IMG/VR virus record: IMGVR_UViG_3300023115_000122
Coordinates: 1 to 21,499 of that record
DNA from: a virus
Length of the DNA: 21,499 nucleotides
Strand: one strand, 5' to 3'
Position 1 is the first letter of the stretch. Each line of letters begins with the position of its first letter. Of the stretch, positions 17,362 to 21,499 are shown piece by piece. Below the pieces are notes generated by a model. That model did no database searches and was not told the origin of the DNA. It saw nothing but the letters and a program-made list of their open reading frames with translations. Position numbers and translations under genes: made by a program.

Positions 17362-17778
17362 ATGGGTACCGCATCAATGATCGGAGTTTATAATAAAGAC
17401 GGATCAGTCACAGCATCTTACTGCCATTATGACGGCTATCTTTCTTATAACGGAAGACTTTTAGTTGAAACATATAACACAACAGAAGCCGCAAATGCAG
17501 TTGCAAATTGTGGTTATCTTTCAGGTTTAACTAATGATCTTGATAATGATCTTAAAGAAGCTGTACATAAAAATGAAGAACCCCGAATTTATAATTCAGT
17601 TGATACCTTCCTAAAAGTTGGTGATCGTTATGCTGGAGCGGATTATCTTTATCTTTTTGATGGAAAAACATGGCTCTATACCGATACATATGGTAACCGT
17701 AAAGACCGTAAGTTTAAAGAAGTCGAAGCAGATTTGGTAGATCATGATGCTCCCAAATTCAATCAGGTAGCAGTATAA
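17362..17778 (+). CDS. Conserved-type phage protein beginning MGTASMIGV
   Basis: A 138-residue protein with the recurrent phage start pattern 'MGT.S.IGV...DGSV.A.YCH.DGY' seen here as MGTASMIGVYNKDGSVTASYCHYDGY. After a helical middle with AANAVANCGYLSGL, the C-terminal part VGDRYAGADYLYLFDGKTWLYTD resembles a small beta domain. Many lytic phages carry relatives, all of unknown function. It has its own strong promoter (module C) and couples to the lysis-type gene by TAATG overlap. Early expression is plausible from the promoter class. Confidence 0.8.
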   Translation: MGTASMIGVYNKDGSVTASYCHYDGYLSYNGRLLVETYNTTEAANAVANCGYLSGLTNDLDNDLKEAVHKNEEPRIYNSVDTFLKVGDRYAGADYLYLFDGKTWLYTDTYGNRKDRKFKEVEADLVDHDAPKFNQVAV

Positions 17779-18335
17779 TGAAACTTAGTAATTTATTATC
17801 TGGTATTATAAACGGTATTACTGCAACAGCTATTATAGTTGTTGCAGGCACTCAACTCTATGCCAATGATCATAGCTGGGATAAAAAACAAATAAGTAAA
17901 ATCACAAATAATGATTTACATTGTCTCCAGCAAAATATTTTCTTTGAAGCAAGAAATCAAACAGTAAAGGGACAAGTTGCCGTAGCATGGGTAACACTCA
18001 ATCGTTTAGATGATACTCGTTATCCAAATACAATTTGTGGAGTTGTAAAGCAAGCTAATCGTGATTCAAATGGTAATATCATTAAACATAAATGTCAGTT
18101 CAGTTGGTATTGCGACGGCAAATCGGATAAAATACCCAGTAATAAAATATCACAAAATGCTTGGAAACAAGCTGGTATTGTAGCCGAGGTTGTTCTAATG
18201 GATAGAATGTCTGGATATATCTTTAAGGATCCTACTAAAGGTTCAACTATGTATCATGCCGATTGGGTATCACCATACTGGAAAGTAAAGTATGATCAGG
18301 TAGCTTATATTGAAGACCATGTTTTCTACAAGTGA
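17778..18335 (+). CDS. Cell wall hydrolase, SleB family (endolysin candidate)
   Basis: A 185-residue exported SleB/Hydrolase_2-type peptidoglycan hydrolase. The N-terminus has a hydrophobic signal or signal-anchor (GIINGITATAIIVVAGTQLYA, about 9-29). The domain follows: LHCLQQNIFFEARNQ with catalytic candidate E57, GQVAVAWVTLNR, YPNTICGVV, CQFSWYCDG, and a C-terminal STMYHADWVSPYW. The family cleaves glycan strands. With a secretion-type N-terminus it could act in the periplasm without a holin channel, like signal-arrest-release endolysins, though the segment ends in a cleavable-looking LYA-ND. Likely the phage lysin. Start overlaps the upstream stop (TAATG). Confidence 0.9.
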   Translation: MKLSNLLSGIINGITATAIIVVAGTQLYANDHSWDKKQISKITNNDLHCLQQNIFFEARNQTVKGQVAVAWVTLNRLDDTRYPNTICGVVKQANRDSNGNIIKHKCQFSWYCDGKSDKIPSNKISQNAWKQAGIVAEVVLMDRMSGYIFKDPTKGSTMYHADWVSPYWKVKYDQVAYIEDHVFYK

Positions 18336-19152: not shown

Positions 19153-19183
19153 ATGATTAATAAATCTTATAGTTATTAATCAT
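19153..19183 (+). repeat. Perfect 11-bp inverted repeat (hairpin) before the tmRNA
   Basis: ATGATTAATAA at 19153-19163 and its exact complement TTATTAATCAT at 19173-19183 enclose a nine-base loop. No T-run follows on the + strand, but an A-run precedes it, so it looks like an intrinsic terminator only for the minus strand. It could instead stabilise the upstream mRNA end, direct processing of the tmRNA precursor, or bind a regulator. Confidence 0.65.
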
Positions 19184-19201
19184 CATATAATACTATATAA
19201 T
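19173..19201 (+). promoter_or_regulatory. Possible tmRNA promoter
   Basis: TATAAT occurs at 19186-19191 and again at 19196-19201. For the second, TTATTA at 19173-19178 is a weak -35 box at 17-base spacing, within the hairpin arm. The predicted start near 19208 would lie just inside the acceptor piece, before the P2 strand at 19217. Weak compared with other promoters in the window. Confidence 0.35.
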
Positions 19202-19256
19202 CTGTAGACGTTATAAAGACTATATGGACCTGGGGGCGGCACCCAGCAGCTCCACC

Positions 19257-19344
19257 ATAAACACTTGATAGAGGACGCTCGAAAATTCTGGGAAGCAGAT
19301 AGGGAAGTAGCTACCTGATTCTGTGGAGAAATTCAAGTGTTTAT
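19257..19344 (+). repeat. 12-bp inverted repeat clamping the tmRNA intervening segment
   Basis: ATAAACACTTGA at 19257-19268 is perfectly complementary to TCAAGTGTTTAT at 19333-19344. These arms begin at the CCA end and stop just before the coding-piece GGGG, so they extend the acceptor stem and close the 90-base intervening segment (19258-19347) that is cut out during maturation. The interior holds a smaller hairpin around CAGATAG/CTACCTG (about 19296-19317). Confidence 0.9.
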
Positions 19345-19394
19345 GATGGGGCTGAAATAGGATCGACATGTATTCTAGTTTACAAAATACAAAT

Positions 19395-19439
19395 GCAAAC
19401 GATAACTTTGCACCATCTGGTTACGCACTAGCTGCATAA
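19395..19439 (+). other. tmRNA proteolysis-tag reading frame
   Basis: From the resume codon GCA at 19395 the frame reads ANDNFAPSGYALAA, followed by TAA at 19437-19439. With the alanine carried by the tmRNA the peptide added would be AANDNFAPSGYALAA. ANDNFA is typical of alphaproteobacterial tags (Caulobacter AANDNFAEEFAVAA), and the ALAA end suits ClpXP/ClpAP recognition. An A lies four bases before the resume codon, as in other tmRNAs. Confidence 0.92.
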
Positions 19440-19517
19440 CACAGGGGGTTGGCCACTTACCTAGCAACAGAAATAGTGGCACATTAATTTTAAAAATTCA
19501 TTAAGGGAATAAAACAA

Positions 19518-19898
19518 ATGAAAATCGCAGCACTCACAGTAGCAGCAACAATTGCAGCAACATCAGTATCAGCAATGGACCTTGGTTCAACAGGTCTTTC
19601 ACTTAACACAGAAGTAGACGCATCATGGGATCTTGATGCTGATACGAATAACCTTCTCGTTACTCTTGAGCCAGAGTTGGGTTACAGCATTGTTGGTGTG
19701 AGCCTTACGGCTGGTATGGATCTTAATGTTTATCAGAATGAAGAATTTGTTCTTGGTGATCAGTTTGACGCTCTTTCAATTGACTTTGGTGCGTCTTATC
19801 AAATTATGGAAGGCCTTTCCGCTTATGGTGAAACAACCTGGGACGTAGAAGCTAGTGAACTCGAAGCATCAAAAGTTGGTGTTACTTTTTCATTCTAA
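19518..19898 (+). CDS. Small outer-membrane beta-barrel (porin-like) protein
   Basis: A 126-residue exported protein. The signal peptide is residues 1-19 (MKIAALTVAATIAATSVSA, cleavage before MD). The mature part alternates polar and hydrophobic residues in strand-length runs (GLSLNTEVDASWDLD, LLVTLEPELGYSIVG, VSLTAGMDLNVY, LSIDFGASYQI, GLSAYGETTWDV, KVGVTFSF) and ends in Phe, the C-terminal signal read by the BAM machinery. It resembles short porin/OMP-like proteins. It lies 37 bases after the tmRNA, with no promoter of its own seen. Base composition and codon choice (many GCA, CTT, TTC) look richer in G+C than neighbours, hinting at host origin. A phage OMP could mask receptors or change permeability. 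Confidence 0.85.
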   Translation: MKIAALTVAATIAATSVSAMDLGSTGLSLNTEVDASWDLDADTNNLLVTLEPELGYSIVGVSLTAGMDLNVYQNEEFVLGDQFDALSIDFGASYQIMEGLSAYGETTWDVEASELEASKVGVTFSF

Positions 19899-21135: not shown

Positions 21136-21499
21136 ATGAGAAAGTTCTTGTTAAGCGCTTTCTTTGTTATGACCGCTGCTATGGTTCAAGCACAGGTTGC
21201 TAATGATGCAGACGGTAATTTTGATAGTACTAGCTATGTAGAAACAAACAATGATAGTACTACAACCACAAACAGTACTGTGACTACTGATAATACGAAT
21301 ACTAATGATACGACGATCACTAGTACAAACACGAATACAAATACAAACACGAATACTAGCACTATAGATAGTACGACTACTTCTACAAATACGAACACTA
21401 ATACTAGCACTATAGATAGTACAACAACATCGACAAACACTAATACCAATACGAGTACAATTACTAATACTACAGATAGTACTATCAATAGTACCAGTA
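21136..21499 (+). CDS. Secreted Thr/Asn/Ser-rich repeat protein (3' end outside window)
   Basis: At least 121 residues, continuing past the window. A signal peptide (MRKFLLSAFFVMTAAMVQA, cleavage before QV) is followed by ANDADGNFDSTSYVETNND and then an almost pure Thr/Asn/Ser/Asp/Ile array built of units like TNTNTNTSTIDSTTTS, 16 residues long (48 bases; compare 21352-21374 with 21400-21422). Low-complexity T/N arrays suggest an extended beta-solenoid, curli-like or adhesin-like surface polymer. AAAAGGTAA at 21122-21130 may be the ribosome site. A late promoter at 21099 points to a virion- or lysis-stage role. No catalytic domain is visible in this portion. Confidence 0.8.
   Translation, partial: MRKFLLSAFFVMTAAMVQAQVANDADGNFDSTSYVETNNDSTTTTNSTVTTDNTNTNDTTITSTNTNTNTNTNTSTIDSTTTSTNTNTNTSTIDSTTTSTNTNTNTSTITNTTDSTINSTS
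21340..21445 (+). repeat. 48-bp tandem coding repeat
   Basis: Two adjacent copies of a 48-base unit are clearest at about 21352-21399 and 21400-21447, with the 23 bases from 21352 and from 21400 identical. Surrounding shorter AATAC/ACGAA steps blur the array edges. The repeat lies in frame within the secreted repeat protein gene. Confidence 0.75.

Follow-up and report, generated by a model that had tools for sequence, protein, structure and literature searches.

The window, a virus record of 21,499 bases, carries a tmRNA gene on the plus strand between a gene for an endolysin and one for a candidate beta-barrel protein (Table 1). Two Rfam families match it, alpha_tmRNA (RF01849; positions 19163-19483, 84.6 bits against a threshold of 50, E 6e-22) and tmRNA_permuted (RF04321; 19200-19439, 77.5 bits against a threshold of 47), and the best estimate of the gene boundaries is about 19200-19483, with inferred mature ends. 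The preliminary description had read this stretch as a permuted two-piece tmRNA and proposed the alpha_tmRNA covariance model as a check; the model was run, both scores lie above the gathering thresholds, and the core elements are all present in permuted order, far above chance. The precursor fold is 3.4 sd more stable than its dinucleotide shuffles (n=200). The window gene escapes ARAGORN, and phage tmRNAs of this sort have probably been under-counted as a result. Promoter-like sites upstream of the tmRNA are not enriched relative to shuffled sequence, and a search for a terminator-like site at the gene found none. A search of related phage sequence, also suggested in the preliminary description, showed that the locus recurs in independent assemblies: an identical tmRNA is present in contigs of three other metagenome assemblies, each with an identical neighbouring endolysin gene, which for practical purposes excludes a chimera, a doubt raised in the same description. 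As judged from its sequence, the element is a real gene, correctly identified as a tmRNA, and of a known kind.

The neighbouring genes include those for a T4-type DNA polymerase (phrog_262), UvsX, a gp41-like helicase, ThyX, MazG and the endolysin, and the T4-like setting originally proposed is borne out. No integrase was found among the 20 window ORFs scanned, which are part of the ORFs of this 21-kb fragment. The DNA polymerase is closest to those of Phage C48C1 and marine cyanophages; C48C1 itself gave no permuted-tmRNA hit. An ORF at 21136-21499 that runs off the end of the record contains an Asn/Thr/Ser-rich repeat tract.

The elements of the gene follow the order P2 3' strand, T arm and CCA, then a 90-nt spacer, then GGGGCTG and the tag frame. 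Folded together, the two pieces form P2, the T stem and a 7-bp acceptor stem that includes G3-U70, the alanine identity pair. The window tag ends in ALAA.

Table 1. Features of the tmRNA gene and its two neighbours (window positions).
Feature	Position	Strand	Basis
Cell-wall hydrolase / phage endolysin, upstream neighbour	17778..18335	+	Pfam PF07486, 79.9 bits; PHROG 938
Small outer-membrane-like beta-barrel protein (candidate), downstream neighbour	19518..19898	+	PF24653, 19.9 bits, below cut-off 27
P2 helix, 3' strand	19203..19226	+	Two-strand fold
Distal P2, 3' part UGUAGAC	19203-19209	+	Two-strand fold; distal helix covaries in AGUC family
P2 3' side, internal loop, then proximal strands	19217-19219, 19221-19226	+	Two-strand fold
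T arm, stem CUGGG/CCCAG, loop GGCGGCA	19230..19246	+	Rfam alignment, fold
Acceptor 3' strand CAGCUCC	19247-19253	+	Rfam alignment, fold
Discriminator A and encoded CCA (19255-19257)	within 19247..19257	+	Rfam alignment, fold
G3-U70 pair of acceptor	partner base 19350	+	Rfam alignment, fold
Intervening segment, exactly 90 nt, presumably cut out	19258..19347	+	Fold
Spacer terminal stem, 11 bp, prolonging the precursor acceptor helix	19258-19268/19333-19343	+	Fold
Acceptor 5' strand GGGGCUG, 5' end of coding piece	19348..19354	+	7/7 pairs with 19247-19253
P2, 5' strand (proximal 19367-19372, 19374-19376)	19367..19384	+	Fold and permutation tests
Distal P2, 5' part GUUUACA	19378-19384	+	Fold and permutation tests
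Linker AAAUACAAAU, 10 nt, P2 to resume codon	19385..19394	+	Sequence; long/compact comparison
Tag frame ANDNFAPSGYALAA + UAA, resume codon GCA	19395..19439	+	Translation
3' pseudoknot	19446..19480	+	Stem 2 covaries
Pseudoknot stem 1 GGGU/ACCU	19446-19449/19459-19462	+	By eye
Pseudoknot stem 2 GCCACU/AGUGGC	19452-19457/19475-19480	+	Covariation
Conserved AACAGAA in 3' pseudoknot	19466-19472	+	

Two-piece tmRNAs are already on record in phages. The Methylophilales phage Melnitz (MZ577097), described in 2022, carries one of the alphaproteobacterial type together with a glutamine riboswitch, and 53 two-piece tmRNAs were counted among the 18,146 phage genomes of a 2021 database, 50 of them marine or aquatic (PMC9004378). 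A phage-borne two-piece tmRNA as such is therefore not new, and the novelty that the preliminary description saw in an alphaproteobacterial form in a T4-like phage falls away; the two roles it suggested, freeing ribosomes and targeted proteolysis, are likewise those proposed for the Melnitz tmRNA (PMC9004378). Melnitz is a T4-like marine methylophage of the Kyanoviridae, the same family as the phage nearest the window by DNA polymerase. The two tmRNAs share the permuted alphaproteobacterial type, a similar tag (ANDNYVPVDYALAA in Melnitz), a similar spacer stem (CCAUAAACACUU...AAGUGUUUAUGAUGGGG in Melnitz) and a position in a T4-like phage genome close to the genes for endolysin, ThyX and replication. 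However, Melnitz has a PK1 region, its resume codon lies much further into the coding piece, and a glutamine riboswitch follows its tmRNA (RF01739 in L002, 52.8 bits), whereas a search of the window for RF01739 returned nothing even at E 5.

The two-piece tmRNA of Alphaproteobacteria (RF01849, Caulobacter type) agrees with that of the window in order, tRNA-like domain, tag design and the 3' AACAGAA, but possesses PK1 and has an additional segment downstream of the tag. Its coding piece is also longer, the median distance from the 5' end to AACAGAA being 195 nt in bacteria, 155 nt in the viral long form and 118 nt in the compact form to which the window belongs; viral tmRNAs are thus reduced as a whole. 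Five further isolates, phages of the Roseobacter, Rhodobacter, Sinorhizobium and Mesorhizobium groups (DSS3_MAL1, DSS3P8, RcXuper, Phosso and Cp1R7A-A1), harbor phage-borne permuted tmRNAs like the window (RF04321; Rfam hits of 99-119 bits), but all five are of the long form with a readable PK1. The genes of Phosso (L318, PV764938), Cp1R7A-A1 (L319), DSS3P8 (L320) and RcXuper (L321) score above the Rfam thresholds and lack a tmRNA annotation in the phage entries as deposited. In the Roseobacter phages DSS3_MAL1 (L317, 194-657) and DSS3P8 (L320, 14-447), a GOLLD RNA adjoins the two-piece tmRNA.

Counted from its 5' end, the coding piece of the window reaches the resume codon after only 47 nt, as compared to 82 nt in Melnitz and 85-87 nt in bacterial loci with a tag read. 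The missing stretch corresponds to the distal part of P2 and the pseudoknot PK1. The resume codon follows P2 after a mere 10 nt, too few for any pseudoknot, so PK1 is absent from the window tmRNA, and the PK1 model positions are deleted in its Rfam alignment. On these spacings and alignments, the loss of PK1, overlooked in the preliminary description, is what is new in the window tmRNA. PK1 has long been regarded as the most important tmRNA pseudoknot. According to reviews, tagging in Escherichia coli requires PK1 and not the other pseudoknots, and a hairpin or a single strand can stand in for it (PMC3968760, PMC4236655); the former attributes to Nameki 2000 the finding that PK1 is the one pseudoknot needed. 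The same reviews report engineered E. coli tmRNAs (Tanner 2006, Wower 2009; PMC3968760, PMC4236655) in which, as in the window, P2 is joined to the tag linker without PK1, but these are one-piece laboratory constructs that keep PK2-PK4. In a 2005 survey of 274 tmRNAs, only Oenococcus oeni and a partial plastid sequence are named as without helix 4, and the shortest tmRNA with a tag measured 250 nt (PMC1168896); the compact form would be about 195 nt long by its predicted ends. No description of a PK1-less phage tmRNA was found in the literature covered, which leaves out many tmRNA papers, for example on reductive evolution and on a third two-piece lineage.

IMG/VR scans and earlier loci together yielded at least 88 viral locus entries of the compact form (some contigs being counted twice), with at least 53 distinct tRNA-like domains and a spacing to the resume codon of 46-49 nt. 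The strict short pattern was found in none of 385 alphaproteobacterial genomes and the strict long pattern in 35. With relaxed patterns, applied to 142 of these genomes, 97 had long matches, nearly all with the usual PK1 sequence, versus a single spurious short match; this one (G068) does not resemble a tmRNA, and a normal tmRNA of the long form is present in the same genome. In the genome collection a single compact copy turned up (L218); it is on a 9.3-kb contig from a Rhodobacteraceae MAG in which eight tmRNA hits were counted, and was rejected as a host gene and read as phage DNA binned into the MAG. The eight permuted hits of this genome (G003, Rhodobacteraceae Water_Bin34) are on separate contigs, suggesting that many phage contigs were binned with the host. 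Candidates whose apparent tag was A, AKS or ANVRCKR, or whose first TGCA lay at 51-53 nt, were left out, as their first codon is a chance TGCA inside long-form RNA. A BLAST search of the window tmRNA against phage isolates, which has low power for a short RNA, gave short matches only and no compact relative in 50,697 records. Within the samples scanned, the compact form is apparently restricted to phages. Several genes of the window are common neighbours in 80 compact loci, namely those for DUF3310 (62/80), the endolysin (46/80), thyX (46/80) and the gp41 helicase (39/80), which places the compact class in T4-like phages; relatives of the downstream neighbour are present in 16 of the 80.

Conservation in the compact set was assessed in gapless fixed registers with permutation of partners, in place of MAFFT and RNAalifold, which misaligned P2 because the length of its internal loop varies; these permutation tests treat the compact sequences as unrelated, ignoring kinship. 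None of the 52 distinct compact sequences has lost pairing in the acceptor or the T stem, for which 44 and 65 double-change cells were counted, respectively; the G3-U70 pair never varies (52/52). For the distal P2 of the AGUC family (n=31), a single fixed register gives 95% pairing, a value that none of the 5000 strand permutations reached (kinship ignored), as against 30-59% in slid registers. In the AGUU family (n=17, including the window), pairing in one fixed register was 67% and not significant, 882 of 5000 permutations being as good, owing to its variable internal-loop length. Over all compact sequences, the best P2 duplex with its own partner has -9.5 kcal/mol versus -7.5 with permuted partners (sd 0.28). 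Pairing in stem 2 of the 3' pseudoknot amounts to 85%, whereas permutations gave no more than 64% (kinship ignored); the stem is built from more than a dozen different helices at a near-constant spacing from AACAGAA. For the tag, the pN/pS computed from 35 distinct compact tags of 14 codons is 0.26; Ala-Ala closes every tag of this length, and LAA is the ending in 45 of 54 distinct sequences. Between phages the tags differ in the middle (S/V/T, G/D/E/N) and are fixed at both ends. By these patterns of substitution, the compact class is under selection.

The window gene probably gives a T4-like marine phage a working two-piece tmRNA of the compact form, which would most likely act in trans-translation together with the SmpB of the host. 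No smpB was identified in 17 phage records, several of which are fragments, while the control search was positive in 10 of 14 genomes. The spacer would be removed by host RNase P and other tRNA-processing nucleases, and the acceptor and coding pieces would stay joined by the acceptor and P2 helices. Charged by the host AlaRS, the molecule could be brought by host SmpB and EF-Tu to ribosomes stalled on truncated mRNA, which may build up when infection leads to breakdown of the host mRNA. Translation would then resume at GCA, add (A)ANDNFAPSGYALAA and stop, releasing the ribosome, and the tagged fragment would pass to host ClpXP. Lacking PK1, P2 would run straight into the linker, as in the engineered E. 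coli tmRNAs. The net effect might be that ribosome recycling is kept going after host takeover. Extended to the whole group, the proposal that a PK1-less, phage-only minimal class (about 195 nt, one pseudoknot) in marine T4-like phages performs full trans-translation with host SmpB has in our view an even chance of being right.

Missing PK1 might impair tagging, and a tmRNA-like domain alone can inhibit the endogenous tmRNA (PMC4131195, PMC11915505), so the phage RNA could instead be a decoy that occupies host SmpB or stalled ribosomes and blocks host trans-translation. This has been suggested for the tmRNA of mycobacteriophage DS6A (PMC4131195), which is also phage-encoded and reduced, but consists of the tRNA-like domain only and is an inhibitor candidate without a tag frame, whereas the window keeps a selected tag. 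A decoy would need neither the tag, nor the A-rich linker, nor the 3' pseudoknot, yet purifying selection acts on the tag, whose frame is complete and whose AA end never varies, and the conserved linker and pseudoknot are kept; we consider a decoy improbable. A main role in tagging particular host or phage proteins, rather than in general ribosome rescue, has been put forward for Melnitz (PMC9004378), and could fit tags whose middles vary between phages. It is about equally improbable here, as no feature that would give target selectivity was seen and the LAA end is an ordinary ClpX signal.

The absence of PK1 and a length below that of bacterial forms, a trait of other viral tmRNAs as well, might also be expected of a captured host gene in decay that lost PK1 by drift. 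Such a relic is very unlikely, since the compact form is present in at least 53 distinct sequences in which acceptor, T stem, P2, tag and 3' pseudoknot are all intact. Finally, integration often takes place at host ssrA (PMC11915505), and the element could in principle be host DNA, either the remnant of an attachment site or part of a chimeric assembly. The recurrence of the locus in independent assemblies, the T4-like neighbours common to compact loci and the lack of the strict compact pattern in the 385 alphaproteobacterial genomes make this extremely unlikely, and add to the grounds on which the preliminary description had already denied an attachment-site remnant.

Trans-translation with host SmpB, the reading that we prefer, would have several consequences. 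If a large natural class without PK1 is kept under selection, PK1 would not be intrinsically needed, and if the class works, it may serve structural studies and reporter design as a minimal tmRNA. Full trans-translation, if true, would show from nature that a tmRNA can dispense with PK1, and the phage molecule would possibly be adapted to replace the host tmRNA in ribosome rescue during infection. The compact class strengthens the case for marine phages maintaining their own ribosome rescue in infection.

Some variants were observed among the viral tmRNAs. In two compact tmRNAs (L261 and L265) the spacer from CCA to GGGG is only 5 nt long. A 31-aa tag, ANDNVAQPKFMKKRNTFARKVGFTKGMALAA, is present in the compact tmRNAs L238, L284, L288 and L294, and a 24-aa tag, ANDNFAPEAFTSLDMSMDRELIAA (or one residue different), in the long-form viral tmRNAs L145, L162 and L184. 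In a second reduced viral form (L236, L241, L243, L249, L253, L255, L259, L260 and others), 57 nt lie between the 5' end and the resume codon, more than in the compact (47 nt) and less than in the long form (80-91 nt), and the tags are mostly ANDNFAPEMRLAA.
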